In this document: in pieces, positions 28,530 to 46,795 of the stretch
Position numbering within the stretch: position 1 is the stretch's first letter
Layout of the letters: the number at the start of each line of letters is the position of its first letter
From: Desulfobacterales bacterium
Lineage (GTDB): Bacteria > Desulfobacterota > Desulfobacteria > Desulfobacterales > SpSt-501
DNA length: 54,979 nucleotides
Assembly: GCA_025454255.1 (NCBI GenBank)
Contig: JALOOU010000011.1
Location: 1-54,979 of the forward strand
Direction of reading: 5' to 3'
Notes under the pieces: generated by a model
What the model was told of the DNA's origin: nothing
Database searches by the model: none
The model's input: only the letters and a program-made list of their open reading frames with translations
Translations under genes and position numbers: made by a program

Positions 28530-28562
28530 TTTACATGTGCTCCGAAAGAATTATTTATTCTT
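28530..28562 (+). promoter_or_regulatory. Possible promoter and dyad for the zinc-ribbon thioredoxin gene
   Basis: TTTACA (28530-28535), 16-nt spacer, TATTTA (28552-28557). The -10 is covered by a perfect dyad AAGAAT-N5-ATTCTT (28546-28562). The combination suggests a regulated promoter in the divergent glpA/thioredoxin gap (28369-28578). Confidence 0.3.
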
Positions 28563-28578
28563 ACGGACAAAGACGACC

Positions 28579-29169
28579 ATGGACGCTGCTCCCGCTCAAA
28601 TCGTGCGCTGCCCCGAATGCAAGGCCGGCAACCGGCTGACGCTCGACCGTTTCGGCTCCAGTGCCGCTAAATGCGGCAAGTGCAAAGCGCCCCTGTTCCC
28701 GCAATCACGCGCCGGGGCGGCCGGCGAGATGTTTAAACTGCGCTGCGCGCAGTGCGGTGCGCGCAATCGTGTTCCGGGGGCGAAACTCGGCGCCGCCCCC
28801 AAGTGCGGCAAGTGCGGCGCTCTGTTGAAGACCGATGAGGTGTTCGCCCCCCAGCCCGTCACGGTGACGGATGCAAACTTCGAGGCCCGTGTGCTCCAAT
28901 CCCCGCTGCCGGTGCTGCTGTTCGCCTGGGCCCCCTGGTGCCCGACCTGCCTTTCCGCGGCACCCATGATCGATCAGTTCGCAACGGAGGTTAAGGGCAG
29001 GGTCAGGGTCGGAAAGCTCAACGTCGATGTCAACCCGAACCTGGCCGGCCGTTTCAACATCATGAGCGTTCCCTTCCTGTTTATTTTCGACAACGGCCAG
29101 ATGAAAGCGAGCATGCCGGGCGTGCTGCAGAAGCACGAGCTGATGCTCAAGCTGGCGCCCTATGTCTGA
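28579..29169 (+). CDS. Thioredoxin with two N-terminal zinc ribbons (TrxC-like)
   Basis: A 196-residue protein: zinc ribbon 1 (CPECKAGNRL ... CGKCK, about residues 10-37), zinc ribbon 2 (CAQCGARNRVPG ... CGKCG, about 52-80) and a thioredoxin domain with FAWAPWCPTCLSAAPMIDQF and FNIMSVPFLFIFDNGQ (cis-proline). The active site is CPTC rather than CGPC. TrxC (thioredoxin 2) has one N-terminal zinc-binding region; two ribbons are unusual. Start ATG 28579 begins right before the first ribbon. It overlaps the next gene by 8 nt, so the two probably work together. Cytoplasmic: no signal peptide. Confidence 0.85.
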   Translation: MDAAPAQIVRCPECKAGNRLTLDRFGSSAAKCGKCKAPLFPQSRAGAAGEMFKLRCAQCGARNRVPGAKLGAAPKCGKCGALLKTDEVFAPQPVTVTDANFEARVLQSPLPVLLFAWAPWCPTCLSAAPMIDQFATEVKGRVRVGKLNVDVNPNLAGRFNIMSVPFLFIFDNGQMKASMPGVLQKHELMLKLAPYV

Positions 29170-31043: not shown

Positions 31044-33548
31044 ATGGAGAAGGCCAAACAGCCCATCGTCCGCAGATCCCTATTTTCCTGGGTGTTGGAC
31101 GGCAACCTCGGATGGCAGCTCTCGCTGCTGGCGGTGATCGCCGTGGTCGTGTTCGCCCGGGTGCTGCCGCTGGAGATGCAAAAGCGCATCGTGAACCAGG
31201 CCATCACTCTGCGCGACCTTGACCTGCTTCTGCTCTACTGCGGGTTTTACCTCGCCGCGGTGCTGCTCGCCAACGCTTGCAAATACGCCATCAACATCCT
31301 CGAAACCCTCATCGCCCAACGGGTGCTCAAGCGGATGCGATCGGCGCTTTACGACCACATCCTTTCGCTGCCGCTGAGCTTTTTTCGAAATACCCAGCCG
31401 GGCACCGTCGTCAATTCCATCGCCATTGAGCTGGTGGCCCCCTCCAACTTCGCCGGGAGCGCGGTTTCAACACCGGTGGCGAACATTCTCACCCTGCTGG
31501 CGTTTGCCGGATACCTGTTTTGGTTGAACCCTCTGCTGGCGGCGGTCTCGCTCAGCATCTATCCGGTCGCGATGATCGCCATTCCCTTGCTGCAGCGGCG
31601 CGCCAACATCGCCAACCAGAAGCGCGTCGACCTCTCGCGGACCTTTGCCGGCCGGATTGCCGAGTCGATCGGCGGGATGCATGAAATCCATGGGCACGCG
31701 GCCCACCGGATCGAAAGGCGCAAATTCGACCGGCTGGCCGAGGAACTCAAAAAAATACGGATCGTCTGGAGCCTCTACCGGTTTGCGGTGAAAACGACCA
31801 ACAACCTGTTCACGGGCCTGGGGCCGTTTCTGGTCTTTCTCATGGGCGGCTACCTGACCATCCGGGGAGAGCTGGAGCTGGGGGCGCTGGTGGCCTTTCT
31901 ATCGGCGCAGGAAAAGCTCTACGACCCCTGGAAGGAGCTCATCGAGTTCTATCAGGTGTACCAGGACGGCGCCGTCACCTATCGGCGCACGATGGAGTTC
32001 TTCGATGTCGAACCCGAGCACGAGCGGGAGCCCGGCGACCGCGCGCCGCTGGCGCTTGACGCCCACCTGGAGGTCAAGCACCTGTCGATTGCCACCGGCA
32101 GCGGGATCCGGTTGTTGGACGACGTCAACCTGGAGCTGAAGCCCGGCGAGCACCTGGCCCTGGTTGGCTTCTCCGGCAGCGGCAAGAGCACGCTGGCGCT
32201 GTGCATCGGCCAGCTCGCCAGCTACGGCGAGGGGCAGGTGATGATCGGCTCCCAGGAAGTGGCCCGGCTGACCAAGCAGGACATCGCCGCCAACGTCGGG
32301 ATCGTCTTCCAGAGCCCGTTCATCTTCGAGGGCTCCATTGCCGAAAACCTCCTCTATGCCTGCGACGCCCTGGCGGATGAAAGGGCGCCGACCGCCCGTC
32401 CGAGCCTGGACGACATCATCGCCGTGCTGCACCAGACGGGCCTCTTTGCGGACGTCCTGAAGTTCGGCTTGAACACGGTCTTGCGGGCGGGCACCCATCC
32501 GGAGCTGGCCCGCGCGATCATCCGGGTGCGACACAAGTTCCAGGAGCGCTACGGCGGAAAGTTCCGCGATGCCGTCGAATTCTTCGAGGAGAGCAGCTAT
32601 CTCGTCTATTCCAGCGTCGCCGACAACCTGATCTTCGGCGCCGCGAACCGGGAGGAGTTCACCCCGGCCCGGATCTCGCGCAACGACTATTTCATCGCGT
32701 TTTTGAACAAAGAGGGGCTGCACCAGACCCTGCTCGACATCGGGGCGAATCTCGCGCGCCAGACGGTCGACATCCTGGGCAACCTGCCGCCGGACGCCGT
32801 CTTCTTCGAACAGAGCCCGATAGCGGCCGAGGATCTGCCGCGCTACAAGTCCGTGCTGGAGCAGCTGCGGCGCCGGAAGGGCGGGGAGCTTTCACCGCAG
32901 GCGTCCAGCAGCCTGTTGGACCTCGCCCTGCGGTTTACGCCCGGGGTTCACAAGATGGCGGCGATGGAGCCGGAGGTTCAGCGCATCCTGCTCGAAAAAC
33001 GGATCCGCTTCCGCGCCGAGGTTTCCGAGGATATTCCGGGGGCGTTCACCTTCTACAACGCCCAGGAGTACATCCATTCCCAGACCATTTTAAACAACAT
33101 CGTTTTCGGCAACCTCACGACGGCCAGCACCCAGGCCCAGGACCTCATCACCCAGAACATCATCCAGCTCCTGATCGAACGGGACCTGCTGGAGACCGTC
33201 ATCGACATCGGCATGAACTACAATGTCGGCCCGCAGGGGGAGAAGCTCTCCGGCGGGCAGCGCCAGAAGCTGGTCATCGCCCGCGCCTTCCTGAAATCGC
33301 CGCGCATGCTGATCATGGACGAGGCCACATCGGCCTTGGACAACCGCTCGCAGGCCCGCATCCAGAACCTGCTCGAAACCCGCTGGAAGCGCAGGAGCAC
33401 CCTGGTGGCGGTGGTGCACCGCCTGGACATCATCCGAAACTTCGACAAGATCGCCGTCATGAAGGCGGGCAAAATCATCGAGTCGGGCCCCTACGCCGAA
33501 CTGATCGACCGGAAAGGAGCGTTGTATGAGCTCGTTGGGAAAAAATAG
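31044..33548 (+). CDS. ABC exporter (fused TMD-NBD) with a large repeat-like insertion in the ATPase domain
   Basis: An 834-residue half-transporter of the exporter type: transmembrane domain about residues 20-310, NBD about 340-834. The NBD has Walker A GFSGSGKST (375-383), Q-loop Gln423 (VFQSPFIFEGS), signature LSGGQ (735-739), Walker B LIMDEATSALD (756-766) and the His switch VVHRLD. Between Q-loop and signature there are about 310 residues, where about 60 is usual. The insert appears to consist of further copies of the helical-subdomain segment: SIAENLLYA/SVADNLIFG/TILNNIVFG, each followed by a GL/DL...(D)IG-N pattern (455-481, 547-573, 702-730). Only the last copy carries LSGGQ. It overlaps the next gene (a cyclic-nucleotide-domain protein) by 23 nt. 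The substrate is unknown. Confidence 0.88.
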   Translation: MEKAKQPIVRRSLFSWVLDGNLGWQLSLLAVIAVVVFARVLPLEMQKRIVNQAITLRDLDLLLLYCGFYLAAVLLANACKYAINILETLIAQRVLKRMRSALYDHILSLPLSFFRNTQPGTVVNSIAIELVAPSNFAGSAVSTPVANILTLLAFAGYLFWLNPLLAAVSLSIYPVAMIAIPLLQRRANIANQKRVDLSRTFAGRIAESIGGMHEIHGHAAHRIERRKFDRLAEELKKIRIVWSLYRFAVKTTNNLFTGLGPFLVFLMGGYLTIRGELELGALVAFLSAQEKLYDPWKELIEFYQVYQDGAVTYRRTMEFFDVEPEHEREPGDRAPLALDAHLEVKHLSIATGSGIRLLDDVNLELKPGEHLALVGFSGSGKSTLALCIGQLASYGEGQVMIGSQEVARLTKQDIAANVGIVFQSPFIFEGSIAENLLYACDALADERAPTARPSLDDIIAVLHQTGLFADVLKFGLNTVLRAGTHPELARAIIRVRHKFQERYGGKFRDAVEFFEESSYLVYSSVADNLIFGAANREEFTPARISRNDYFIAFLNKEGLHQTLLDIGANLARQTVDILGNLPPDAVFFEQSPIAAEDLPRYKSVLEQLRRRKGGELSPQASSSLLDLALRFTPGVHKMAAMEPEVQRILLEKRIRFRAEVSEDIPGAFTFYNAQEYIHSQTILNNIVFGNLTTASTQAQDLITQNIIQLLIERDLLETVIDIGMNYNVGPQGEKLSGGQRQKLVIARAFLKSPRMLIMDEATSALDNRSQARIQNLLETRWKRRSTLVAVVHRLDIIRNFDKIAVMKAGKIIESGPYAELIDRKGALYELVGKK

Positions 33549-34050
33549 TCCGGAGGTTCCCTGCGAATTCAAAGAGAACCTGGACCTGCTCCGGCAGACC
33601 TACTTGTTTTCAGGGTTCCCCCTTGAATCGCTCAAGGTTTTCGCCTATCTTGGCACGCGTGAAAAGCTCCATGACGGGGACTACCTTTTCCGGCAGGGGG
33701 AGGACGACGATCAGGCGTATTGCATCGTCTCCGGCAAGGCGCGCCTCGAGCTCGGCGACAATGGCCCGGTGCGCCTCATCCGCGAGGTGGGGCCGGGCGA
33801 TTTCATCGGCGGCCTGGCGTTGCTTGGAGACGCGCGCCGGCTCTACTCCCTCAGGGCCATCGGCGAGATGGTGTGCATCGTCCTCAAACGGGAGAAGTTT
33901 TCCAAGGCGGTCCAGCAGTTTCCGGACCAGATGCCTCGTATCTTCAGGGCGGTCGTGGAGGCAGTAATCGATTGGGAGGGCCGCTTTCTGGTGGCGCTCG
34001 GGGCCGACTGCGGCGGGTGCCTTCCGCGCTTGGGGGTCAGCCTGCTGTAA
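33526..34050 (+). CDS. Cyclic-nucleotide-binding-domain protein without DNA-binding domain
   Basis: A 174-residue protein, essentially one CNB (cAMP/cGMP-binding-like) beta-roll: LREKLHDGDY-type entry EKLHDGDYLFRQGEDDDQAY, CIVSGKARLEL and GPGDFIGGLALLGDARR. The phosphate-binding cassette normally reads G-E-(L/I)-A-L...P-R-A; here the Glu is Gly (GGLALLGDARR), so classic cyclic-nucleotide binding is doubtful. There is no helix-turn-helix. The start overlaps the exporter gene by 23 nt, so translation is coupled and a regulatory role on the transporter or the RsbW/RsbV pair is likely by context. Confidence 0.82.
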   Translation: MSSLGKNSPEVPCEFKENLDLLRQTYLFSGFPLESLKVFAYLGTREKLHDGDYLFRQGEDDDQAYCIVSGKARLELGDNGPVRLIREVGPGDFIGGLALLGDARRLYSLRAIGEMVCIVLKREKFSKAVQQFPDQMPRIFRAVVEAVIDWEGRFLVALGADCGGCLPRLGVSLL

Positions 34051-34092: not shown

Positions 34093-34551
34093 ATGGGCCA
34101 AGAACCGCTCACATACGCGTTTTCGCTGCGCAGCGATATATCCGAGCTCCAGACGCTGGGCCGGCGGCTGGAATCGATCGGCGTTGACCTCAAGCTCTCC
34201 AAGCGCTGCCTCTTCGAGCTCAATCTCGCACTGGACGAGCTGTTCACCAACATCATCTCCTACGGGTACGGCGACGGCCATGAGCACCGGATCGAGGTGA
34301 CCCTCCAGGCCGATGAACGAATGCTGAATGTGACCATCGAGGACGACGGCGTCGCCTTCAACCCGGTCGAGCGCCAAGCCCCCTGTCTGCCGCATTCGGT
34401 GGACGACTGCCGGGTGGGCGGGTTGGGGATCCACCTCATCCGGAATCTGATGGATGAGGTCTGCTACCGGCGTGAAGGGCAGAAAAATATCCTGACATTG
34501 AAGAAAAAAATAGAGACGATTTCGTCCCATCCCTACGAAACCGGCGCATGA
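34093..34551 (+). CDS. RsbW-like anti-sigma/serine-kinase (HATPase_c) protein
   Basis: A 152-residue GHKL-fold ATPase of the anti-sigma-factor kinase type. The N-box is LALDELFTNIISYGY, G1 is IEDDGVAFNP and G2 is GGLGIHLIRNLMDEV, all in order and at expected spacing. RsbW/SpoIIAB proteins bind a sigma factor or other target and phosphorylate their STAS antagonist. Here the STAS gene follows directly, with the two frames overlapping or abutting. No sigma factor is encoded nearby, so the output may be non-transcriptional. Confidence 0.9.
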   Translation: MGQEPLTYAFSLRSDISELQTLGRRLESIGVDLKLSKRCLFELNLALDELFTNIISYGYGDGHEHRIEVTLQADERMLNVTIEDDGVAFNPVERQAPCLPHSVDDCRVGGLGIHLIRNLMDEVCYRREGQKNILTLKKKIETISSHPYETGA

Positions 34552-34562
34552 GGAGAATCGGC

Positions 34563-34895
34563 ATGGATATCGCAGAAGAGAAGCAGGCGGGGGTACATGC
34601 GTTCAAGCTCAAAGGCCGTTTGGATTCGAACACCTCCCTGGCCTTCGAGCAACGCCTTTTCGAGTCGATCACCAACGGCACCAAAAACGTCATCATCGAT
34701 TTCAAGGAGCTGGATTACATCTCCAGCGCCGGCTTGAGGGTGATCCTGAAGGCGACCAAGGCCCTCAAGCGGGAAAACGGTAAAATCATGCTCTGCGCCA
34801 TGCAGGATTACGTCAAGGAGGTCTTCGAGATCGCCGGCTTCGATGCGTTTCTGCCGATCGTGCCCACCTTGGATGACGCGCGCCGGGCGCTGTGA
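34563..34895 (+). CDS. STAS-domain anti-sigma factor antagonist (RsbV/SpoIIAA-like)
   Basis: A 110-residue single STAS domain: AFKLKGRLDSNTSLAFEQ, NVIIDFKELDYISSAGLRVILKATK and MQDYVKEVFEIAGFDAFLPI. The phosphoacceptor Ser of the family lies in DYISSAGLRV. Start ATG 34563 is preferred because AGGAG lies 7 nt upstream; an ATG at 34548 overlapping the kinase stop is the alternative. It would be phosphorylated by the adjacent RsbW-like kinase and release its target when dephosphorylated. It is last gene of the exporter operon and convergent with the PqqD-like gene (25 nt between). Confidence 0.9.
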   Translation: MDIAEEKQAGVHAFKLKGRLDSNTSLAFEQRLFESITNGTKNVIIDFKELDYISSAGLRVILKATKALKRENGKIMLCAMQDYVKEVFEIAGFDAFLPIVPTLDDARRAL

Positions 34896-34920: not shown

Positions 34921-35268
34921 TCACCGCAGGCCGATGAGCCCGCGCCGGCCGAGCTCGCGTGCAAACTGGGAGACGGCCACCTGCGCCTCTTTCGGCTCGA
35001 GTTGATGGGTTGCGGCAAACGCCGCGGCAATCTCCCGCAGCGAGCGCCGGCCGTCGATCATGTCCCACACCGCCGTGCCCAAAACGTCCAGCTGCAGCTT
35101 GCCGATCCGAGGCGGACCGGGGGGCTGGCCGAACCAGCGGGCGACCCGCGCCACCCAGGGCGGCGGCGAAACCGGGTAGTGGAGCACCACCTCGCCGCCG
35201 ACCCGCCGGGAGGCGCTCACATGACGGTTTTTCACCGGCGTGCAGCCGAGCGCCTCCTCGCGGCTCAT
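34921..35268 (-). CDS. PqqD-family protein (RiPP-recognition-element-like fold)
   Basis: A 115-residue protein. The core LDVLGTAVWDMIDGRRSLREIAAAF and ELGRRGLIGL match PqqD (winged-helix RRE fold, which presents precursor peptides to radical SAM or other modifying enzymes). The N-terminal part (about residues 1-45) is an extra strand-rich piece. Start ATG 35268 (MSREEAL) follows the upstream stop; an alternative ATG at 35304 would overlap the upstream gene. It is the last gene of the long minus-strand operon starting at 46653. No radical SAM enzyme or precursor peptide is visible in the window. Confidence 0.8.
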   Translation of the reverse strand: MSREEALGCTPVKNRHVSASRRVGGEVVLHYPVSPPPWVARVARWFGQPPGPPRIGKLQLDVLGTAVWDMIDGRRSLREIAAAFAATHQLEPKEAQVAVSQFARELGRRGLIGLR

Positions 35269-35284
35269 GCGCGGCGGCCCCGCC

Positions 35285-36199
35285 TTAGACGTCGACCAGC
35301 CCATAGGTTCGATTCACCATCCTCCACAGACCCGGCTCAATGACGGCCCGGGCCTGCATGCGCAGGCCCAGTATCCGGTTTCTTTCCGGCAGGTGCCACA
35401 GCCGCGCCCGGCAGACCGAATGGAGCCCGAGGCGCCGGGCGAGGCGGCCACCGATGCCGGCGGCGGCGGGGCGGTGGCCCTCGACGGCCGCCATCCCGGG
35501 CTCCTCGGTCGCTTCAAACCGCAACGGCGCCAGTTCCCCCACGGAGTGCGCAAATCGGGTGAGGTCGCTGTCTTTAAGCAGGACGGCGGCCGGGGCCCAG
35601 CGGTACAGATCCAATCGGCAGCGGTCGGCGGCGAAGCTCAAGACGAACCGACCGGGTTCGAACCGATGGCGGACAAGGGCGAAGCGTTCCGGGAGCTGGG
35701 CACGAATGTCGAATACCGCCCATCTAACCACACCGGCGTCGCCCTGGAAACGCAGGCTTTGCAAAACGGCGCCCGCCGGGTGGAGAAAGCCCCGGTCGCC
35801 GGCCGCATGGAAAAACTGAACCAACCCGCCGGTGCGGCTGCGGGGGCAGAAGAGGATCGCGCCGGTGGCGGCGGCGCCGCCGGCGCTCCAGCAGAAACCG
35901 GACGGATCGAACTGCGCCAGCGCCGGCTTCCATTCTGCCGGCAGCCGGCACTCCCGGGCGTTCGCCCCGCGGGCGCCGGTGAGCTTTCGCAGACGTTTCA
36001 AATGGGTGCGGTGCAAAAATCGCCCGCGCACCCGGCCCCATTTTATCTCCATGGCGGGCCCGGCTTCGGATTCGACGATGAGGTGGCGCGGGCCGATCCT
36101 GCCGGGCTCCCAGCCGGGCGGGATGGCGACACAGACGCCGTTCCAGGCCAGCTCTTTCCAGCCGGGGGGGGGCTCGTGTTTGGCTTGCTGATCCATCAA
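35285..36199 (-). CDS. Unknown soluble protein of the export operon
   Basis: A 304-residue protein without signal peptide or clear membrane helix. It opens with PPGWKELAWNGVCVAIPPGWEPGRIG and contains repeated beta-rich pieces (HLIVESEAGPAMEIKWGRVRG, RFEPGRFVLSFAADRCRLDLY). It is rich in Trp, Arg and Gly; five scattered Cys, no paired metal motif. It lies between the second polytopic protein (31 nt gap) and the PqqD-like gene (16 nt gap), so it is almost certainly co-transcribed with them. The composition suggests a beta-sandwich; I do not recognise a family. Confidence 0.75.
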   Translation of the reverse strand: MMDQQAKHEPPPGWKELAWNGVCVAIPPGWEPGRIGPRHLIVESEAGPAMEIKWGRVRGRFLHRTHLKRLRKLTGARGANARECRLPAEWKPALAQFDPSGFCWSAGGAAATGAILFCPRSRTGGLVQFFHAAGDRGFLHPAGAVLQSLRFQGDAGVVRWAVFDIRAQLPERFALVRHRFEPGRFVLSFAADRCRLDLYRWAPAAVLLKDSDLTRFAHSVGELAPLRFEATEEPGMAAVEGHRPAAAGIGGRLARRLGLHSVCRARLWHLPERNRILGLRMQARAVIEPGLWRMVNRTYGLVDV

Positions 36200-36230
36200 C
36201 GCCCGCTCATCGCGTGCAACGCGGCGCGCT

Positions 36231-38192
36231 TCAATACGGCAGCCGCGAGAGGGACTTGAGAATGAGGGTCACGCCCATGGCGAACATGCCGGTCAGCCCC
36301 ATGCCGCAGGAGAAGCCCGCCAGCAGGACCGGTGCATACTGCCGCCACATGGCCCCGTAGCGCTTGAGGAAGAAAAAGCGGCCCAGCAGCGCCCCGACCA
36401 CCTCGAGAATGAGGCCGTGGGGGGTGCTCTGGCCCAGCCCCCGCACCATGCCGTAGACCAGCATGATCGGCAGGCCGCAGAGGCTCAGCAGCAGGTAGGT
36501 GAGGACGCCCAAAAGCGTGCCGGCGCCGACATAGGTCCAGCTGAGGGCCTGAAAAAAGAGGGAATTGCCCTCGAGGGTGGAGGTCTGCATCAGCAGCGTG
36601 TTCAGGGCCTGCAGGTGCCAGAGCTCCTGGGCGAACGGGTAGGCGTTGGAGGGGATGGGGGCCAGGCGCCAGATGAACTGCGAAAACAGCAGACTGGCGA
36701 TCATCACCACCGGGAAGACGACGATTTCGGACTTGATGATGCCGCGGATGCTGGTGCCGGTCAGCTCGATTTCGCGAAAGCCCACCGTGGCGCTGCCGTA
36801 GTTGTGGATGGGGATGGGTGCGTACCAGATCTCGATGCCCTGGTAGCCGAAATACTTGGCGCCGGCGATGAAGCTCGCCTCGCGCACCAGCGGCAGGCTG
36901 ACGAACTGGCCGGCGATGCCCTCCATCCGGGCCGTGATGTAGGAGATCATCGGGGTGTAAATGAACCCGTAGAGCAGAAAGAAGACCACTGGAAAATTCG
37001 GTACCAGCCAGACGCACAGCAGCACATAGGAGAGCGTGGAGAATACATAGATTCCGATCGAGATCCAGAAGTTGAAATCTCCCCGGCCCGGCGGCGGGCG
37101 GAACAGATCGCGCCAGCTGCCGCGGGTGCCCGCGGCGCTGCGGTGGAAGGAGCGCGCCACATGCCAGATGCCGACCACGGCGATGGCCACCCCCAGGCCG
37201 ATGCCGAAGCTCAGATAGAAATCGAAGTTGTTCGCGAACACGGTCTCCACCGTGCGCATGCCCGGGTGCCACCGGTGCAGTATCCCGGCCTGATACAGGA
37301 ACGGGTTGGCCACGATGGTGATGATCAGCCCGCCCAGGCCGCCGATCACGGCCCAGAACGGCAGAACCATGCCGACGAACACCAGCCCTAAATCGAACTG
37401 GATGCCGGTGGCCACGGCGGGCAGCCACTCCTCGGTGTGAAGGGTCAGATCGATCCAGGGGATCGGGATCAGCCGGATCGGCTCCATGAGGAACAGGGCG
37501 GAGACGGCCGGCAGCAGAACATACACCGCGCCGAAGGCGAGTCCGATGACCGCTCCGATGGAAAACACCCGCCACTTCCACCCGCTTTCGCGTTCCTCGG
37601 TCGACTCGGCCAGCGCCATCGTCCCCAGCGCCGCCACGGGCGCCATGGGAAAGGGCAGCCGCTCCACGTCGGAGGTGATGCGGTAGAGCGCATACCCTAG
37701 CCCGAATTGGTCGATGCGGGTGATGATCTGGGTTCCGATCAGCAGCAGGATCGGGATGAGCCAGTCCGAGTGGAAAAACGTGCGCTCCAGCAAGGCGGCG
37801 GATTCCGCCGGCGGCGCCACCCACAGGGGGATATAGTCGGTCAGGCCCAGCATGCGCGCGGCGTCGGACTGCACTAGGTATTGGCTCCACAGCAACCCCT
37901 GGAACGGGGTGTGCAGCGCGGCGCCGGCCATGTAGTAGAGCAGGAAGATCTCCTGCTGCTTCAGGTCGCTGTAGGAGCGTTTGGCCAGCTCGGCAAACAG
38001 GATGATGGTCACCCAGCGCGCGGCCGGGCCGATGCCGGTGCCGATGACCAGCTGCAGGTACATGCTGCCGGGCATCATCAGAAAGCCGATGAAGATCGCC
38101 CCGACGATGGTCTTCCAGTCGAAGCCCTCCTCGAAGCGCGTGGGCGTCTTCAGCAGGTCCCGGTATTCCTGGAGTTCTTTGTCCTCGTGCAT
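36231..38192 (-). CDS. Large polytopic membrane protein (DUF6784/6785-like, OPT-like), second of a pair
   Basis: A 653-residue protein with about 12-14 hydrophobic helices (for example IVGAIFIGFLMMPGSMYLQL, AVIGGLGGLIITIVANPFLY, GIGLGVAIAVVGIWHVA and VPNFPVVFFLLYGFIYTPMI). The soluble N-terminus starts MHEDKELQEYRDLLKTP. It resembles, from memory, large uncharacterised transporter-like families annotated DUF6784/DUF6785 that recall oligopeptide transporters; this was not checked. It begins 4 nt after the stop of its longer partner (38197-40257). The two may form a heteromeric channel or transporter working with the FtsX/ATPase genes upstream. Confidence 0.75.
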   Translation of the reverse strand: MHEDKELQEYRDLLKTPTRFEEGFDWKTIVGAIFIGFLMMPGSMYLQLVIGTGIGPAARWVTIILFAELAKRSYSDLKQQEIFLLYYMAGAALHTPFQGLLWSQYLVQSDAARMLGLTDYIPLWVAPPAESAALLERTFFHSDWLIPILLLIGTQIITRIDQFGLGYALYRITSDVERLPFPMAPVAALGTMALAESTEERESGWKWRVFSIGAVIGLAFGAVYVLLPAVSALFLMEPIRLIPIPWIDLTLHTEEWLPAVATGIQFDLGLVFVGMVLPFWAVIGGLGGLIITIVANPFLYQAGILHRWHPGMRTVETVFANNFDFYLSFGIGLGVAIAVVGIWHVARSFHRSAAGTRGSWRDLFRPPPGRGDFNFWISIGIYVFSTLSYVLLCVWLVPNFPVVFFLLYGFIYTPMISYITARMEGIAGQFVSLPLVREASFIAGAKYFGYQGIEIWYAPIPIHNYGSATVGFREIELTGTSIRGIIKSEIVVFPVVMIASLLFSQFIWRLAPIPSNAYPFAQELWHLQALNTLLMQTSTLEGNSLFFQALSWTYVGAGTLLGVLTYLLLSLCGLPIMLVYGMVRGLGQSTPHGLILEVVGALLGRFFFLKRYGAMWRQYAPVLLAGFSCGMGLTGMFAMGVTLILKSLSRLPY

Positions 38193-38196
38193 GGCG

Positions 38197-40257
38197 TCAG
38201 TCCGGCAGAACGAGGTAGCTGGCGTAGCTGAACAGCCCGTAAATCGCCCAGGAGCCGGCCATGAAAAAGTCGCCGATGATCAGACCGACGAAAAAATAGC
38301 GCAGCTTCCGGTACAGGGCGATCCCGCCGTAGCGCAGGCAGAGCGAGTTGAACGCCCACCCGACGAAAAAGCTGAACCAGAGGATCCACATGGCGGAGCT
38401 GTAGGCGGCCAGATAGCCGATGGGGTGGATCGGCCACCAGAAGAACCGCTGGTAGCAGACGACCAGGGCCAGCATCACCGCCGCGCCTGCGGATGCAAAG
38501 ATGAGCACCCACTTGCTCAGCGCGGCCGGGGACTCGACGAGCTGAAAGGCCCCTTCGTAGACCGCCAGCGTCGTTCGCGTCGCCCATTCCGTGTGGAGCT
38601 CGCGTGCACCGAACTTGTAGCAGACGGCCAGCATGGCGATAAACGATACCGCCACCCCGGCGGCCAGGGCGATAGCGATGCCAACCGACATCCAGCGGTT
38701 GTTGCGGACGCCCTCGGTGATTTTGCGTGCATGCAGCAGCGAGGGCATCAGCGCCTCGCGCAGGTCGACAAACAGCATTTTCTGGATGACCGCGGCCATC
38801 ACCACCCCGGTCTGGGCCAGAAACTTCGATCCGAAGAGGGTGATGACCCCGTCGAGGGGCGCGGCCGTGAGCGTGAAGTAGGTGATTCCGCCCTGGCAGA
38901 TGACCCGGGTGGCGACCAGCAAGAAGAGGAAAAAGAAGGCCACCACGATCAGCGCTGCCGCCAGAGGGATCCCGAAGGCGGCGCACCAGGCCACGATGCC
39001 GAGGCTGCCCGCGACAAACCCCCAGAAGGCCGCGGGGGTCGAAAGCCATTCGCTGCCCGGGTCCTCGTCTCTGCGGGCGCCGACGGCTTTCAGTATCGTG
39101 TCCAAAAAGTGGAAGCGGGCCAGCCAGGCGAGAAAGAGGAAAAAGACGATGTAGGCCCCGATCATTTGGGTCTCCTCGGGGCGGGAGAGGGTGGGGCCGA
39201 AGGTCACCCCCAGTGCGGCGGCGGGGATGTTGACCCCCAGCACGCTGAGCAGGCCGACCAGCAGCGCGCCGGCGATGAAGAAAAACCAGAAGGAGAAGGA
39301 GACCTGCTGGGAGGTCAAAAAGGCGAACCCGATGAAGGCCGGATAGATGTAGATCTTGAGCTTGGTGAACCCCGAGAACAGGCCGACCTTGGGAAAGTAG
39401 CCGCCTGCCAGCACCATGGTCGGAATCGAGGGCACGGAGGGGTTGTAGAAGCTCAGCCCGTTGATCAGGTGCAGCAGGACCGGGATCAGGACGCCGGCCA
39501 GCAGGTAGGGGTGGGTGAAAAACGATGCGGGCCGGTCGCTGTCGAGGCTCTCCTGCATCATGATCGGCACGCGCAGCAGCGGGAAATTCATCCGTTCGTT
39601 GTACAGGGGCTGGCGGCTGAGCAGACTCACGATGCAGAGCATCACCAGGTAGCACAACAGGATAAACCCGGTCCAGCCGAGCAGCGGCCCTGCCCAGGCG
39701 TCCCAGGGAATGCGCTGCAGAACTTCGGGCCACTCCATCTGGCGGCCGCCGGAGAGCCCGTTGTAGAAACCTTCGACGGCCTCCATGCTCTGGGGGTACC
39801 ACGCCGCGGGCAGCAGCGGGTGGAGCACCTCGCTCCAGCGGTTCTCCACGGTGGCGAAGTAGTAGGGGGCGGTCAGGTTGAAGAAGAACGTGCGGGCCAG
39901 CCCCGTCCAGGCGATTCCGGACAGAAGCACCATCAGGGCCCAGGCCACGAGCATCTCGCGGCCGGTGATCAGCCGGTGCCGCTTGAAAACCGCCCTGACC
40001 GCCGCGGTCGCGGCCATCATCCATACCAGGATGTAGAACGGGGCCAGGGGAAAATAACCGCCGCCCAACGGGGTGCCCTGGCGGTAGGCATTGTTGAAGG
40101 GGGTGATCAGGCAGATCGTCAGCCCCAAGAGGATGCCCAGGGCGACGGCGCGCAGACGAACCCGCTGCCCGTCGGCGCGCCGGGTTTCGGCAGGCGGCTG
40201 CCCCGGTCCGCTCGCTGCGGCCGCCTCGTCTGCCCGTCGGCGGTGCCCGGGTGTCAT
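38197..40257 (-). CDS. Large polytopic membrane protein (DUF6784/6785-like, OPT-like), first of a pair
   Basis: A 686-residue protein with about 14-16 hydrophobic helices after a hydrophilic, Arg/Ala-rich N-terminus of about 35 residues. Notable segments: LGILLGLTICLITPFNNAYR, GYFPLAPFYILVWMMAATAA, FIGFAFLTSQQVSFSFWFFF, ARKITEGVRNNRWMSVGIAI and a Trp/Phe-rich end. The pattern with alternating long helices and Tyr/Phe-rich loops resembles the same poorly described family as its neighbour. Start ATG 40257 overlaps the stop of the giant permease gene by 4 nt (ATGA). Function unknown; a transporter is the default reading. Confidence 0.75.
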   Translation of the reverse strand: MTPGHRRRADEAAAASGPGQPPAETRRADGQRVRLRAVALGILLGLTICLITPFNNAYRQGTPLGGGYFPLAPFYILVWMMAATAAVRAVFKRHRLITGREMLVAWALMVLLSGIAWTGLARTFFFNLTAPYYFATVENRWSEVLHPLLPAAWYPQSMEAVEGFYNGLSGGRQMEWPEVLQRIPWDAWAGPLLGWTGFILLCYLVMLCIVSLLSRQPLYNERMNFPLLRVPIMMQESLDSDRPASFFTHPYLLAGVLIPVLLHLINGLSFYNPSVPSIPTMVLAGGYFPKVGLFSGFTKLKIYIYPAFIGFAFLTSQQVSFSFWFFFIAGALLVGLLSVLGVNIPAAALGVTFGPTLSRPEETQMIGAYIVFFLFLAWLARFHFLDTILKAVGARRDEDPGSEWLSTPAAFWGFVAGSLGIVAWCAAFGIPLAAALIVVAFFFLFLLVATRVICQGGITYFTLTAAPLDGVITLFGSKFLAQTGVVMAAVIQKMLFVDLREALMPSLLHARKITEGVRNNRWMSVGIAIALAAGVAVSFIAMLAVCYKFGARELHTEWATRTTLAVYEGAFQLVESPAALSKWVLIFASAGAAVMLALVVCYQRFFWWPIHPIGYLAAYSSAMWILWFSFFVGWAFNSLCLRYGGIALYRKLRYFFVGLIIGDFFMAGSWAIYGLFSYASYLVLPD

Positions 40258-43200
40258 GGCGCCTCCCCGCCGGCGGCGGTGGCCGGCGCGTGCGGCTGGC
40301 GAAATTCATCCAGCCGGGCTTCGTAGAGGGTTTTGGCGTCGTCATCCAGCGACCGCCATATCAGCAGCTGGCGGCGGACGTCGTGCAGGAAGCCCTTGTT
40401 GATGCGATGCCAGATATTGGACTCGCCCGATTCCCGGATCAAGTGGACATGGATTTCAAGAAACCCGGGTTGGTCGGGCGACGGCCTGAACCTGAACTCG
40501 GCGCGCTGCATGATCCCGAAATCGAACGGGGCGAGCCATACCTGGGTGGTCAGGTGCAGGCAGTCGGGCAGCTCGCAGGCGCCCTCCGGGCAGTCTGCGG
40601 CCGTATCGCTCAGGCGGGGCGCCGTTTCGCACGCGAAGTCCAGCGCAAGGTTCGAGGTGGAAAATCGGCCGTGGGAGACGTCTCTGTGCCCGTCGAAGTA
40701 GTGGACCAGGTAGCCGCCCACGCTCATGTGCTCCCGGTAGGTCATCAGGAAGGGCAGTCGCACGTGGATCGTGTTGGCCCGTGCCGGCGGCAGCGTCCAG
40801 GAGCGGTTGACGTCCGGGATGGCGATCTCGGCGGCCACCCGGGAGGGGTAGATCACCGAGACGAGCACCACCGCGATGACGAGCAGCATGGCCGCCACAC
40901 CGGCGAGCGAGGAGTAGTTCACCGTGATTCCGCTCCAAAGCATCGTGCCGGCAAAGAGCTTGGCGGTGGTTTGAGCCACCAGGTAGCCGAAGACCACGCT
41001 CAGCACGGCAAAGGCCAGGGCTTCGGCGATGAACAGGAAGGAGACGTGCGAGGGCGCCAGCCCCACGGAGGTGTAGACCGCGATCTCCCGCTTGCGCTCA
41101 TAGACGCTGCCGATCATGGTGTTGAGCACGATAAAAACCGAAATGGCCAGGGGGATGATGATGTTCGGGACCCCGCTGAAGCTCATGGCGTCGCTGGCGT
41201 GGTAGAGGAAGGTCCCCTCGGGTTCGCCGCTGAAGAGGGATAAACCGAATCGATCCACCAGCTGCTGGGCCATGCCCGCAACGTTTTGCGACGGTTCGAT
41301 GCCCACCGCGACGGCTTTCAGCCGGCCGCCGGCGGCCATCAGCGTCGGGTAGGGGACGATTACGGTCACGTCGGCCGCCGTGTGCTGATACCGGCTTTGG
41401 AACTCGCGCAAGTCCTCGCCGGACTCCAGGGACTCCACCATCTCCTCCGTCATTTCGGAGGAGCTCTCCCGGGGGAAGGTGACCGGTGTGAGCGGCTCGC
41501 CGTCCAAATCCAAATGCTCCTGAAATTTACGGGACGAGAAGACCCCGACCACGTTGAAGGGCATGCCCCACAGCGAGATGTCGCTGCCTGCCGGCTGCTG
41601 GGGATCGATTCCCAGCGCGGCGGCCATGCGGTCGGGCAGAAGCACGGCGCGGCGTTCGTCAGCGGTGAACCAGCGGCCGCCGGTCAGAAGCGATTCGATG
41701 TCCCACAGGCGCGGCTCGTCCGCGCAGAGGCCCATCACGCCCTGCGCTTCGGCGGTCCGGCCGTTGGCGCGCAGCGGGCTGATGACGGGGCGAGTGGGGT
41801 CCGCCCCCTCCAGCCAGGCGCGCGGCACGGCGGTGCCCGTATCGCTGAAGCGGGCGCGGATCACCCCCAGGGCCTCGGCGGGCAGGTCGGCCCAGTTCAC
41901 GTTTTTGAGCAGAACCCCCTGGAAGGACGCCTGCGGCACAAAGAGAATGCGCGCCTGCCGCCGCAGCGACTTGACCGAGGTGAAGCTCATGATGGTGAAG
42001 GTCAGGATGATCAGCGTGATGCAGGTCAGCGCCGTGCGCAGGCGTCGCCGCCGCAGGTTGCTGACGCCGAGCAGAAACGCCGCCGCGAACGCCTTCCAGC
42101 GCCCGATGTCTCCGGACTGAATGGTGCGCGCGCGGGCTTGCACCCCGGCGATCTCCTGCTCGAACCGGAAGAAAATGATGAGCGTGACCACCAGCGACAG
42201 CCCCATGATCAGGAAGGCCAGAATCACGACAAGCGGGCTGTAGGCCAGTTGAAAGGCCGGGTGCACGTTGTAGATCAACGCAATCAGCGCCGCCAGGATC
42301 AGGCCGAAGGCGATGATGCGCTTGTATATGTTGGCATAGGCAAACAGCAGCCGCTCCAGACAGAACGCAAACGGGACGAACAGCGCGATGTAGAAGAGCA
42401 CCCCGTACAAAACGTCCTTCTGGGTTTTTTCGACCTCGTCGTACACCCGCGAGGCCAGCGCCCAGGAGCTGGAGCTCGCTTCGATGAAGCGATCGTAGCG
42501 GCGGGCATCCCAGGCCTGCCCGGCGGCGTTCAAGTCGGCCAACCCCTGCTGCTGGAGGCTGCGGATCTGCTCGTTGAAGATGCCGCGCGTCTCGAGGTTG
42601 GCGATGCGCGGCCCCAGCAGGGTCCACATGTCCGCGGCGACCCGGTGCTCGGTGCGATGGAGCTGGGGAAAATTCTCGATCTCGAAGCCGCTGCCCGTCG
42701 GATCGGCCGGCGAAGCGTTGAGGAGGATCAGCTTGCGTCGCAGCACCGTGTCCGTCATGGTCATTTTGAACGGGATGCCGGGCTCCAGAAACACGGTGCT
42801 GAGCATCGAGGACCAGGTGTCGAGCCGGCTCATGAACCAGCGCGACGGATCGGCCTCGCGGCGGCCGTCGATGACGTCCGCCTTGGTCAGGAAGCGGAAG
42901 GTCCGCGGTTCGAGCAGGTTGAAGAGGGTGGTGCCGGAGCCGGCAAACATGACCAGGTCGGTTTCCATAAACCGGCGGTTCATCTTCACACGGTAGGCGT
43001 CCTTGCCGGTCAGCTTTTTGTCGATGACCCAGAGGGCCTCGCCCGTTTCGGGGTCGAAGCGGTAGGCTTCCAGAACGACCTTGTGAAAACTGTGGGTGCG
43101 GTCGGCCACCCCCTTGAGGGAGAACCGGCCCCGCTGGTCGACCATGACATGGAACCGGGACGGGCCCTGATAGCACAGCAGAACGCTGCCGGGGGCGGGT

Positions 43201-45185
43201 TTGTCGGCAAAGAGCTCCCCGTGCCGCAGGAACTTGGCCCGCCCGTTGATGGTTGAAAACCCATTGCGCGGGGCTTCCCCCTCGCGCAGCTGCGGGGCGC
43301 GGCCGAGGTGGCCGATGAGCCCGCTGATGACCGCGGACTGGCGCTGGGCGAAGCCGAGGTCGACCCGGTCGACCCGGTCGTACGGGGTGCCCCAGGCCGC
43401 GCGGGCATCTCCGGTGGTCGCCAGGGTGATGCCGTGGATGCCGGCCAAGGCGGTCACTTCCCCCCCCAGCGCCGGCCGGTCGAGAAAATAGCTTTGCCAG
43501 GAGCGCACCCGGCTGGGCCGCAGGGTGTCCTGGAGCAGGCCCTCGGTTCCCAGCCGGTATTCGATTTCGGCCGCGCCGCTTTTCAGGGCTTCGTCGAGCC
43601 GGCTGTAGGCCGGCGTGCGGTTGATGCGCGGCCGGAACGGGTAGAGCCATCCGTAGTTGAAGGCGCCGAACCCGCTGCCGTGGCTGGAGAGATGCAACGA
43701 GACCGCGGCGACGATCTCGAACTGCTGAACGGCGCTGCGCAGCGCCGTGGCGCTCTCCACCAGCCTGAGCTGCACGCGGGCGTCCGCGAGCATCGCCTCC
43801 TGGTCGGCGCGGGCCCGCGCGGCCACCGCCAGCAGCGCCCGGCGTTCTTCCGCGGTCACCTGCTGGAAGTCGCTGCGCCACATCAGCCGACGCAGCAGCT
43901 GGCGTTCTGCGCTGAGCCGCCGGATGAGCTGCGGGTCGCCGCCGGCATCCTCCAGGCGCAGACGCATCAGCCGGCGGGAGACGATGTCGGCGTCGGTCTT
44001 GAGGCGTTCCTCGAGCGCCGCCTTGAGCAAGGACTCCGGATTCGGCGTCGCACCCTCCTCCTCCTCGGGTGCGGCGGCGGGCGTCGGAGCGGCCGACGTT
44101 TCGAAGGTGGCGTTTTTCAGGGCCCGCAGGGTTTGGCGCGCCTGCGTTACAAACCGCCGCAGATCGTTGCGGGCGTCGCGCAGGTCGCGCGAGCGAGCGG
44201 TGAAGCTCCAGACCATCTCGCGCAGGCCCGCCAGGGTCTGCGCGTGGCCGGAGGTGGCCACCAGCATCACCGTGCGCGCCGGTGGGTTTTCCTTCAGGTG
44301 CTGCGCCGCCTGGAGCAGGGTGGCGGCACCGACGGCCTCGTCGGCGCCGGGGGAGAGGCCGGCGACGTGGGCGGAGCTGTCGTAAAACGCCTCCACCACC
44401 AGCAGTTCAGCGCGCAGCTGCTCCGAGGTGCCGGGGACGATGCAATAGATGTTCTCTGCGGCGACGTTTTCCCAGCGGGCCTCCGCCCGCAGTCGCACCT
44501 CATCGGCCACGCGCCCCTCCGGCGCCGCCTCGAATTCGCCGAAGGCTGCTGCAAGGGCTGCAGCGGGCATCCAGAAGCGGGGGAACTGGATGGGCGAAAG
44601 CTCGAACTTTTCTTCAAAATCCATCCCCGTGGAATCTCCGCGGTCCACGTAGATCAACGCCTTGGCCCCGAGGTTGGCCGCCCGCAGCCAGTTTCTGCCG
44701 GAGTGAAGCTCCATCAGCAGGACCGCCCCCTCGATGACCTTGCCGTTCAATTGCTCCAGCTCCCCGTCGCCCACGTAAACCAGCGGGCCGGTGAGCCCCG
44801 GGGGGGGGACGGCCTGCGGGGTGACGGCGTTGCCGGCCAGGGGGTGGAGCGCCAGCCTCACCCCCCGTTCCGGTGCCTCGAGCGTGCTCGATCCCCAACG
44901 GATGACGGGCACCGCAAAGGCATGCGTTGCGACGGCCCCGATACCGAGCTGTTCCAGCTCCGCTTTGATGAAGGCGGCCGCCTCCGCGTTGCCCGCGGAT
45001 CCGGTGCTGCGGTCGTTCAGATCGGCGAAGGTGTTCAGCCGCCGTTGAAAATCGGCTGCGGCCGCGGTCGCCGCCTCGGCCCCCAAGGGTCCGCCGCACA
45101 GAAGAGAGGCCAGCAACGCCATGCGGAGCAGGACCTGGCGCCCGGCCGCAGCCGGGCGGGGCATATGGGCTGCTGCCGGCCGCAT
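40254..45185 (-). CDS. Giant fusion: PA/M28-peptidase-like ectodomain + FtsX/MacB-type ABC permease
   Basis: About 1,643 residues. Signal peptide or first helix VLLRMALLASLLCGGPLGA; PA-like domain about 128-185 (LVYVGDGELEQLNGKVIEGA); M28-like peptidase core about 240-330 (ENIYCIVPGTSEQLRAELLV, PGADEAVGAATLLQAAQHL). Metal ligands look lost: the expected HxD reads AFYDS, GADDNGSG reads GADEAVGA, and the GEE region reads SGHAQ. Then come a helical stretch, a second M28-like piece (GDARAAWGTPYDRVDRVDLG), a carboxypeptidase-regulatory-like beta domain, several helices (around 980-1080), and an FtsX permease with SNLRRRRLRTALTCITLIIL and NTMIGSVYERKREIAVYTSV; a C-terminal soluble domain of about 200 residues follows. 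Start ATG 45185 follows the ATPase stop. Confidence 0.82.
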   Translation of the reverse strand: MRPAAAHMPRPAAAGRQVLLRMALLASLLCGGPLGAEAATAAAADFQRRLNTFADLNDRSTGSAGNAEAAAFIKAELEQLGIGAVATHAFAVPVIRWGSSTLEAPERGVRLALHPLAGNAVTPQAVPPPGLTGPLVYVGDGELEQLNGKVIEGAVLLMELHSGRNWLRAANLGAKALIYVDRGDSTGMDFEEKFELSPIQFPRFWMPAAALAAAFGEFEAAPEGRVADEVRLRAEARWENVAAENIYCIVPGTSEQLRAELLVVEAFYDSSAHVAGLSPGADEAVGAATLLQAAQHLKENPPARTVMLVATSGHAQTLAGLREMVWSFTARSRDLRDARNDLRRFVTQARQTLRALKNATFETSAAPTPAAAPEEEEGATPNPESLLKAALEERLKTDADIVSRRLMRLRLEDAGGDPQLIRRLSAERQLLRRLMWRSDFQQVTAEERRALLAVAARARADQEAMLADARVQLRLVESATALRSAVQQFEIVAAVSLHLSSHGSGFGAFNYGWLYPFRPRINRTPAYSRLDEALKSGAAEIEYRLGTEGLLQDTLRPSRVRSWQSYFLDRPALGGEVTALAGIHGITLATTGDARAAWGTPYDRVDRVDLGFAQRQSAVISGLIGHLGRAPQLREGEAPRNGFSTINGRAKFLRHGELFADKPAPGSVLLCYQGPSRFHVMVDQRGRFSLKGVADRTHSFHKVVLEAYRFDPETGEALWVIDKKLTGKDAYRVKMNRRFMETDLVMFAGSGTTLFNLLEPRTFRFLTKADVIDGRREADPSRWFMSRLDTWSSMLSTVFLEPGIPFKMTMTDTVLRRKLILLNASPADPTGSGFEIENFPQLHRTEHRVAADMWTLLGPRIANLETRGIFNEQIRSLQQQGLADLNAAGQAWDARRYDRFIEASSSSWALASRVYDEVEKTQKDVLYGVLFYIALFVPFAFCLERLLFAYANIYKRIIAFGLILAALIALIYNVHPAFQLAYSPLVVILAFLIMGLSLVVTLIIFFRFEQEIAGVQARARTIQSGDIGRWKAFAAAFLLGVSNLRRRRLRTALTCITLIILTFTIMSFTSVKSLRRQARILFVPQASFQGVLLKNVNWADLPAEALGVIRARFSDTGTAVPRAWLEGADPTRPVISPLRANGRTAEAQGVMGLCADEPRLWDIESLLTGGRWFTADERRAVLLPDRMAAALGIDPQQPAGSDISLWGMPFNVVGVFSSRKFQEHLDLDGEPLTPVTFPRESSSEMTEEMVESLESGEDLREFQSRYQHTAADVTVIVPYPTLMAAGGRLKAVAVGIEPSQNVAGMAQQLVDRFGLSLFSGEPEGTFLYHASDAMSFSGVPNIIIPLAISVFIVLNTMIGSVYERKREIAVYTSVGLAPSHVSFLFIAEALAFAVLSVVFGYLVAQTTAKLFAGTMLWSGITVNYSSLAGVAAMLLVIAVVLVSVIYPSRVAAEIAIPDVNRSWTLPPARANTIHVRLPFLMTYREHMSVGGYLVHYFDGHRDVSHGRFSTSNLALDFACETAPRLSDTAADCPEGACELPDCLHLTTQVWLAPFDFGIMQRAEFRFRPSPDQPGFLEIHVHLIRESGESNIWHRINKGFLHDVRRQLLIWRSLDDDAKTLYEARLDEFRQPHAPATAAGGEAP

Positions 45186-45195
45186 GTCGTCCGGG

Positions 45196-45933
45196 TCAGT
45201 CCCGCACGCGGATCTTGCCGATGGAGATGGATAGCTCTTCACGGTTTTCAATCTTGTCGATCCGGCCGTCCCGGATCCAGACGACGCGGTCGGAGACGTT
45301 GAGCATCTTGATGTCGTGGGTTGCGGAGATGACCGTGACCCGATGCTCTTGGCTCAAGCGCTTCAACAGCGAAATGATCTCCTCCCCGGTGGTCAGGTCC
45401 AGGTTGCCCGTCGGCTCGTCCGCCAGGATGATGGCCGGGTCGTTGGCCAGCGCCCGGGCAATGGCCACCCGCTGCTGCTGACCGCCGGAGAGCTCGAAGG
45501 GCTTGTGGCTGTGGCGGTCGGCCAACCCGACCTGCTCCAGCAGCCGCAGGCCCTTCTTCACGGTGGCGTCGCTGTTCATGCCGGCGAACACCATGGGCAG
45601 GGTGACGTTTTCAAGAGCGGTCATGACCTGGATGATGTTGAAGGTCTGGAAGATGTAGCCGATCTTGCGGCAGCGCAGCCAGGCGAGCTCGTAGGCATCG
45701 AGCTGGGCGATGTCCACCTCGTCGATGAACACTTTCCCGGAGCTGGGCTTGTCCAGGCCGCCGATCATGTTGAAGAGCGTGCTTTTGCCCGAGCCCGAAG
45801 GCCCCATGATCGAAAGGTATTCCCCTCGGGCGATCTCCAGGTCCACGCCCTTCAACGCCTGGACCTCGATCTTGCCGAGCGTGAAGCTCTTGGTGACGCC
45901 GGACACCCGCACGACGTTGCTGGTTTCAGGCAT
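45196..45933 (-). CDS. LolD/MacB-type ABC transporter ATPase
   Basis: A 245-residue ATPase of the FtsE/LolD/MacB class, which drives FtsX-fold permeases that extrude or mechanically move substrates at the periplasmic side. Walker A SIMGPSGSGKST, Q-loop GYIFQTFNIIQVMTALENV, signature PFELSGGQQQRVAIARALAN, Walker B IILADEPTGNLD, then SATHD. It sits between the small FtsX permease (21 nt) and the giant permease (10 nt), so the three should form one ABC complex with two different permease subunits. Confidence 0.94.
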   Translation of the reverse strand: MPETSNVVRVSGVTKSFTLGKIEVQALKGVDLEIARGEYLSIMGPSGSGKSTLFNMIGGLDKPSSGKVFIDEVDIAQLDAYELAWLRCRKIGYIFQTFNIIQVMTALENVTLPMVFAGMNSDATVKKGLRLLEQVGLADRHSHKPFELSGGQQQRVAIARALANDPAIILADEPTGNLDLTTGEEIISLLKRLSQEHRVTVISATHDIKMLNVSDRVVWIRDGRIDKIENREELSISIGKIRVRD

Positions 45934-45954
45934 GTGCCATATTCCTCGCAGAAG

Positions 45955-46653: not shown

Positions 46654-46795
46654 GTCAAACTCGCCGAGGCCCTCGCCGGGTGTGGGGTATGGCCGGAATG
46701 TACCCTTCAACCTGCAAGCGATAACATAGTGAAGGGCGGCAGTAAACAGGAATGATTCTCGGTTGGGGGAGCGGATTCGCCGGCGCAACCGGAAC

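Follow-up and report, generated by a model that had tools for sequence, protein, structure and literature searches.

A conserved family of ABC half-transporters with a serially triplicated motor-domain segment and a cNMP-fold partner

Among the ATP-binding cassette (ABC) ATPases, UvrA and Rad50/SMC carry a large insertion between the Q-loop and the signature motif, but the inserted parts are zinc- or UvrB-binding domains or coiled coils and are not known to be repeats of the segment itself. Eukaryotic CFTR and SUR provide analogies for a ligand-gated ABC exporter scaffold. Two bacterial systems may serve as precedents for a regulated nucleotide-binding domain (NBD). Namely, HetC is an ABC exporter whose N-terminal cyclic nucleoside monophosphate (cNMP) domain was required in vivo and bound ppGpp in vitro; no significant protection was seen with cAMP or 2-oxoglutarate (PMC10986499). 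The STAS protein MlaB binds the helical subdomain of the NBD of MlaF (PMC7367683). Here we analysed a stretch of 54,979 nucleotides (the window) from a Desulfobacterales bacterium (assembly GCA_025454255.1, contig JALOOU010000011.1, positions 1 to 54,979). It encoded an ABC half-transporter with a large insertion at the same place, and this insertion appeared to consist of serial copies of an NBD segment.

The exporter gene and its three serial copies

The exporter gene was located at positions 31,044 to 33,548 of the plus strand (also the strand of its parts and of the downstream partner genes given below) as a single open frame of 834 amino acids. Its transmembrane domain (TMD; PF00664, 31,182–31,907, residues 47-288) scored 95.9 bits in Pfam against a cut-off of 28. 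All five catalytic motifs were present, namely Walker A (GFSGSGKS, 32,166–32,189, residues 375-382), the Q-loop Gln (Q423), the signature LSGGQ (33,246–33,260, residues 735-739), Walker B with its Glu (LIMDEA, 33,309–33,326, residues 756-761) and the H-loop His792 (33,417–33,419). The match to the ABC_tran profile PF00005 was broken in two, at profile positions 80 and 97. From Q423 to L735 we counted 312 positions, versus 56 in all 28 measurable ordinary ABC domains, in agreement with the values of about 310 and about 60 residues given in a preliminary description of this DNA. The distance from Walker A to the signature was 360, versus 104 in 29 and 108 in one of 30 ordinary domains. These 30 domains came from related genomes, and the shorter distance was taken only where the search pattern fitted (28 domains). 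At 27 of the loci the domain was that of the exporter matched by the search; at L153, L158 and L164 the adjoining ABC frame, cut by the locus edge, was used because the matched exporter lacked the strict signature. The latter three exporters were of ordinary length (668-675 amino acids), had no strict SGG signature and lay beside a frame with LSGGQ, which is the arrangement of heterodimeric exporters.

Copy 1 (32,274–32,489, residues 411-482) held the true Q-loop and the motif SIAENLLYA starting at residue 431. Copy 2 (32,493–32,843, residues 484-600) contained SVADNLIFG at 524 and had no Gln at the Q-loop place. A helical linker (32,844–32,963, residues 601-640) separated it from copy 3 (32,964–33,245, residues 641-734), which contained TILNNIVFG at 681 and ran into the signature at 735; the motif coordinates given earlier were exact. 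One Asn per copy (N435, N528 and N685) was invariant in all 92 distinct family members, as were R496 and R653 at the matching places of copies 2 and 3. These 92 members (80 from the delta group, i.e. Desulfobacterota and similar, and 12 from Alphaproteobacteria) remained after frames below 780 amino acids were excluded and identical stretches merged (115 to 92). Since they were collected with an insert profile, the presence of the insert was by construction, but the invariance of single residues was not. Members with one or two copies were absent among the 92, which was partly by construction as well because the profile covered the whole insert.

When single sequences were aligned, copies 1 and 2 scored 63 (shuffled mean 23.5), which was reached by none of 1000 shuffles; copies 2 and 3 scored 58 (1/1000), and copies 1 and 3 gave a weak score of 33 (18/1000). 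These scores were somewhat flattering because the units had been chosen with the motifs already known, and the non-overlapping controls and the profile of ordinary domains are the safer evidence. A first profile comparison used a 36-row alignment, which also underlay the two structure models and contained the window and 35 of the 44 related loci described below (L020, L040, L041, L042, L046, L048, L049, L051 and L052 were cut, frameshifted or held N and were left out). It gave P values of 3.4e-4, 6.3e-4 and 7.9e-6 for the copy pairs, with HHalign probabilities of 38, 28 and 84%. With 92 rows and wider units the values were 1.8e-7 for copies 1-2, 1.6e-9 for 1-3 and 4.1e-16 for 2-3 (94, 96 and 99%), the alignment of copies 2 and 3 extending over 84 columns (about residues 486-570 versus 643-726). 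Twelve comparisons of a copy with a segment sharing no residues gave P of 0.11 or worse. The profile of the 30 ordinary domains, covering the stretch from Walker A plus 15 to the signature, matched copy 1 (P 7.8e-16), copy 3 (1.1e-7) and copy 2 (2.3e-5), versus 0.06, 0.12, 0.3 and 0.43 for four controls without shared residues. Two control matches were strong (copy 2 with the linker window, the ordinary profile with the Walker-A window) because the compared windows shared residues; in the profile comparison, neither copy 3 nor the ordinary NBDs showed a relation to the linker control window (581-640). The threefold motif recurrence noticed earlier was a real repeat by the profile values, all controls without shared residues lying at P of 0.06 or above. 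The sequence supports a triplication of the part of the NBD that begins with the Q-loop strand and takes in the early helical subdomain, and the closer likeness of copies 2 and 3 hints at the order of duplication.

The full-length model had a mean predicted local distance difference test score (pLDDT) of 82.6. In the region 431-730, 26 of 30 ten-residue blocks reached at least 84, and the TMD stretches 151-176 and 280-296 were below 50. All three copies had the same order of elements: a short strand, a gap, a short helix at the N-motif, a short strand or helix, and two helices. With E for strands and H for helices, these were E418-421, H432-436, H438-443, H455-465 and H468-476 in copy 1, E511-513, H525-530, E532-534, H548-556 and H560-578 in copy 2, and E668-670, H682-687, E689-691, H696-712 and H716-724 in copy 3. 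Foldseek matched the full-length model to type IV exporters, the best including TM287/288, TmrAB and PCAT1, and the lengths (about 834 alignment columns versus targets of about 570) suggest that the insert formed a gap in these alignments. Copy 2 with the linker (residues 478-668) modelled alone was also confident (mean pLDDT 87.3), and the short strand of copy 2 was missing from this model.

Other origins of the long motor domain were considered. A fusion of two or three complete NBDs was ruled out, since the insert divided what Pfam recognised as one ABC_tran domain and neither copy 2 nor copy 3 showed its own Walker A or Walker B. An assembly or frameshift artefact was ruled out by the same open frame in many independent genomes. 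A mobile insertion was not favoured because the stretch of copy 2 and linker aligned to the very NBD that hosts it, and its matches in PHROG and Pfam were only weak and unrelated.

Family members, their cNMP-fold partner and catalytic motifs

A whole-protein search, some of whose peptide patterns fell inside the insert, returned 46 loci. Of these, 44 held a member and came from genomes titled Desulfobacterales, Desulfobacula, Deltaproteobacteria and similar; L053 and L054 matched only the ordinary ABC region and were not counted. The insert was present at full span in 40 of the 44 loci, partial in L040, L049 and L051, and not seen in L052, where the match covered residues 3-331 only. A match was present in 34 of 96 related genomes and in 20 of 297 genomes of the window's phylum. 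A tblastn search of plasmids with the whole protein returned 240 records, of which 127 covered at least 80% of the query, all below 60% identity; the ten genera in the tally were alphaproteobacterial, and two records belonged to unnamed groups. None of 194 genomes from the phylum of one Akkermansiaceae genome gave a match, which shows little since there was no positive control. The rhizobial members were annotated merely as ABC transporters.

The delta-group rows combined Desulfobacterota genomes, assigned by kinship, with metagenome-assembled genomes titled Desulfobacterales, Deltaproteobacteria and the like, and two of them (L022 and L029) were labelled Myxococcota in the tree output. The tree was built without the insert from 46 family and eight outgroup rows (a filter kept 47 of the 92 rows, and two L094 rows shared one name), the small outgroup coming from Desulfobacterota genomes only. 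The family formed one side of a branch with support 100/100 against the eight ordinary exporters. It is a distinct and conserved family of type IV (MsbA-like) ABC half-transporters. The alphaproteobacterial members formed one group (100/100) with a long stem (2.04), and L112 was weakly placed beside it (88/50). The L112 member (G121), from a distant genome of the window's phylum, had intact ATPase motifs and matched the longer, alphaproteobacterial-like start of the insert, and the phosphate-binding motif of its cNMP partner contained Glu and Arg; it is a possible link to the alphaproteobacterial branch. At L094 (G060:C62:12000-25000) an orthologue and a divergent paralogue faced each other on one contig, with PqqD-like and 304-residue protein genes between them.

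The exporter was followed by a gene for a cNMP-binding-fold protein of 174 amino acids (33,526–34,050), whose frame, counted from the first ATG, overlapped the exporter's 3' end by 23 bases (33,526–33,548). Its PF00027 domain scored 67.2 bits against a cut-off of 27.5. Pfam found only the cNMP domain in the separate partners scanned (those of the window and of L061), with no DNA-binding domain in the window protein. A cNMP-fold protein was directly downstream or fused in 87 of the 92 members. In the delta group it was a directly downstream frame in 75 of 80, and the two open frames overlapped in 74 of these 75 cases, start codons being set only in the window. All 12 alphaproteobacterial members had it, seven as a separate downstream gene and five (L057, L058, L059, L062 and L132) as a C-terminal fusion; single tblastn pieces of a fused Azospirillum protein spanned both separate rhizobial genes, e.g. 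in H85 and H107. On the other hand, the same profile found no cNMP frame at any of the 30 control exporter loci in the downstream stretch covered, which was about 590 bases or more at 28 loci and less than 30 at two. This nearly constant partner indirectly favours the earlier suggestion that the insert is a regulatory arm. The canonical phosphate-binding cassette for cyclic nucleotides has Glu and Arg. The alphaproteobacterial partners had Glu in 8 of 12, Asp in 4 of 12 and Arg in all 12.

In the delta group, Walker A, Q423, [LM]SGGQ, DE759-760 and H792 were matched in all 80 members, whereas none of the 12 alphaproteobacterial members matched any of the five catalytic patterns. The insert gave a ratio of nonsynonymous to synonymous substitution rates (dN/dS, Nei-Gojobori) of 0.05-0.16 in four alphaproteobacterial pairs, and the NBD core, where it could be computed, gave 0.04-0.18; one pair, L057/L062, was near saturation (dS about 1.5-1.9), with one segment not computable. 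The compared pairs are under purifying selection, and since dN/dS was well below 1, the alphaproteobacterial genes are not decaying pseudogenes. In two delta-group pairs the insert had dN/dS of 0.30 and 0.15, the highest of four segments. We also observed NBD-less relatives of 419-497 amino acids on alphaproteobacterial plasmids (L129:4773-6266, L130:4770-6029, L131:4773-6077 and L135:4773-6077). They matched the TMD of the fused Azospirillum member at 36-41% identity, were too short for an NBD, and adjoined genes for copper oxidases or for plastocyanin-like or copper-resistance proteins; in L130 and L131, Pfam recognised a TMD only, below cut-off for L130.

Genes around the exporter

Downstream of the cNMP gene were genes for an RsbW-like HATPase_c_2 protein of 152 amino acids (34,093–34,551) and an anti-sigma-antagonist-like STAS protein of 115 amino acids with an SSAGLR motif (34,548–34,895). 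Both domains were above the Pfam cut-offs, and by family the proteins are predicted to be partner-switch components. Across all loci examined, loose patterns found an SSAG-type motif in 48 of 49 STAS hits and an N-box-like sequence in 48 of 54 distinct hits. Both genes were present at 33 of the 44 loci; among the other 11, seven (L013, L019, L022, L040, L042, L045 and L052) had less than 1000 bases of room and four (L020, L023, L046 and L048) about 6000. The pair was not found at the nine alphaproteobacterial loci searched (L055-L063) or at the four divergent loci L095-L098. No sigma factor occurred in the portion of the neighbours that was scanned with Pfam.

Glycosyltransferase genes lay beside the member at six of nine annotated alphaproteobacterial loci (L055, L056, L058, L061, L133 and L134) and not at L057, L059 and L062; the records of L060, L063 and L132 carried no annotation. 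In the window, a GT28-type gene was located at 46,915-48,495, about 13 kb from the exporter gene. From these neighbours, our best guess for the substrate, weakly held, is an envelope glycan or glycolipid. A rhizosphere transposon-sequencing study listed pRL110056, an 'O-antigen biosynthesis enzyme', among genes that matter for root colonisation (PMC11103875). It may lie at the L061 locus, which belonged to pRL11 of Rhizobium johnstonii 3841.

A convergent block at 34,921-40,257 on the minus strand recurred beside the operon. Its PqqD-like gene and the gene for an uncharacterised 304-residue protein were seen in at least 27 of the 44 loci, an uncharacterised 653-residue protein in at least 20 and a DUF6785/DUF6784 protein in at least 11, many loci being cut. 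Further on the minus strand (40,254-46,788) we found an open reading frame of 1665 residues in which regions resembling M28 peptidases and MacB/FtsX were joined; after it came an ABC ATPase and a second protein of FtsX type. On the other side of the exporter, at 28,537-29,169 of the plus strand, a thioredoxin had an N-terminal zinc-ribbon match in two stretches; it was seen in one of the 44 related loci, many of them cut.

Proposed mechanism, rival explanations and known systems

We propose that the added copies serve as a platform on which the cNMP-fold subunit docks and gates the exporter. This exporter would be a pump driven by ATP in the delta group and, probably, a pseudo-ATPase in Alphaproteobacteria; we give this reading slightly less than even odds (about 0.45). 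As the sequence shows, the part of the NBD between the Q-loop strand and the signature was duplicated in series into three copies. By motif position, the working Q-loop lies in copy 1 and the residues preceding LSGGQ in copy 3, so that the working helical subdomain is a composite, of presumed geometry, with copy 2 and the linker spliced in. Gene order and fusions suggest that the added copies dock the cNMP-fold regulatory subunit on the NBD and that the docked subunit gates the transport cycle. In the delta group, where the ATPase seems intact, the RsbW-like/STAS pair may add a second input. In the alphaproteobacterial members, which retain the copies and the cNMP partner but have degenerate ATPase motifs, the same scaffold probably acts as a ligand-sensing device without hydrolysis. 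A bolder version, which we regard as doubtful, is that the triplicated segment and its partner took control from hydrolysis. The alphaproteobacterial proteins would then be a cyclic-nucleotide-gated, hydrolysis-independent channel, scramblase or sensor, while the delta branch would keep the ATP-driven form.

A number of observations weigh against the docking and gating proposal. Physical contact between the insert and the cNMP-fold protein was deduced from gene order and fusions. No cNMP frame was detected in five of the 80 delta-group members; L045 and L122 stopped at or near a contig end, and L044, L046 and L118 had 1.2 to 6 kb of room. The delta-group ligand may not be a cyclic nucleotide because the Glu of the cassette was mostly missing (Gly at its place in 45 of 75 partners, with Arg in 59 of 75). 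In the alphaproteobacterial members the loss of ATP binding or hydrolysis may be incomplete, since single catalytic residues survived in some: L132 retained the Lys of Walker A and the Glu of Walker B, the Asp of Walker B was present in both L057 and L062, and L056 had LTGGQ at the signature (LTSGQ in L060). Moreover, plasmid records were the source of all 12, so members with intact motifs may exist on chromosomes. Finally, copy 2 matched the ordinary-domain profile over 50 columns only (HHalign probability 76%), and its isolated model with the linker matched no PDB structure with E of 0.001 or less (best E 2.0). For these reasons, of the triplicated helical subdomain put forward in the preliminary description, the serial sequence copies stood, while 'three helical subdomains' in three dimensions are unproven.

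The failure of the isolated model to match any solved fold, NBD or other, would also fit an insert that is an unrelated helical regulatory domain resembling the post-Q-loop region by convergence, with no real triplication. The sequence of copy 2 and linker agreed with this as well, its best matches being outside ABC proteins (Pfam E 0.0011 to YfhO, in 5 of 36 members; PDB sequences E 0.13), and so did the weak alignment of copies 1 and 3 as single sequences. Nevertheless, convergence is very improbable given the profile P values of 1.8e-7, 1.6e-9 and 4.1e-16, the ordinary-domain profile that matched all three copies and none of its four non-overlapping controls, the paired invariants R496/R653 and N435/N528/N685, and the common order of secondary structure. 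It is less improbable, though still unlikely, that the protein is an ordinary ATP-driven exporter with a neutral elaboration, beside which the cNMP, RsbW-like and STAS genes are mere operon neighbours. The five catalytic patterns found in the window and in 80/80 delta-group members fit such a view, as does the insert having the highest dN/dS of four segments in both delta-group pairs. Against it stand the full-span insert at 40 of 44 loci (partial or cut at the remaining four), the dN/dS of 0.05-0.16 that the insert keeps where the ATPase motifs are degenerate, and a cNMP gene that adjoins or is fused to the exporter in 87 of 92 members across two groups versus 0/30 control loci.

The direction of signalling could also be the opposite one, with the transporter acting as a membrane sensor whose state is relayed by the cNMP, RsbW-like and STAS proteins to a sigma-factor partner switch, i.e. 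from pump to regulators. The family assignment of the two proteins, the SSAG-type motif kept in 48/49 STAS hits and the ATPase loss in Alphaproteobacteria would all suit a sensor. On the other hand, the RsbW-like/STAS pair was not found at L055-L063 or L095-L098 while the cNMP protein stayed, and the Pfam-scanned portion of the neighbours held no sigma factor; we consider this relay rather improbable. A serial triplication inside an ABC ATPase domain would be an unusual route to a regulated motor. The family represents a natural experiment in which two groups share the repeats and the cNMP-fold partner, but only one of them has kept the ATPase motifs, which are degenerate in the second. It makes testable whether a ligand-sensing subunit can gate an ABC exporter scaffold without hydrolysis, and several alphaproteobacterial members occur in tractable rhizobia.

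The preliminary description knew of no ABC transporter with this architecture, and we likewise found none described in the open-access literature, a body that leaves most subscription papers outside. HetC/NHLM-type exporters (TIGR03796, TIGR03797 and TIGR03896) similarly combine an ABC exporter with a cNMP-fold domain. However, the cNMP domain of HetC is N-terminal and accompanied by a C39 peptidase (PMC10986499), whereas in our family it is downstream or C-terminal and Pfam found no peptidase domain in the window exporter. The exporter and the cNMP partner were both far below the cut-offs of these families, the exporter scoring 231 and 247 bits against 853 and 709 for TIGR03796 and TIGR03797. 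MlaFEDB resembles our system in having a STAS protein near an ABC ATPase, which is known here from gene proximity; the window STAS protein matched MlaB weakly (E 1.3e-4, 22 bits against a cut-off of 90). The Mla system has a different TMD type and is not known to contain a triplication, while our family has an additional cNMP-fold partner and an RsbW-like protein. The best NCBIfam match was MsbA (TIGR02203, E 1.3e-89), also a TMD-NBD half-transporter with all catalytic motifs, but the window exporter reached 301.2 bits against an equivalog cut-off of 602. It differed from type IV exporters in having 312 instead of 56 positions between the Q-loop and the signature. The family represents a confirmed and conserved novelty of architecture in a superfamily already known, and one of its branches is, unexpectedly, catalytically degenerate.

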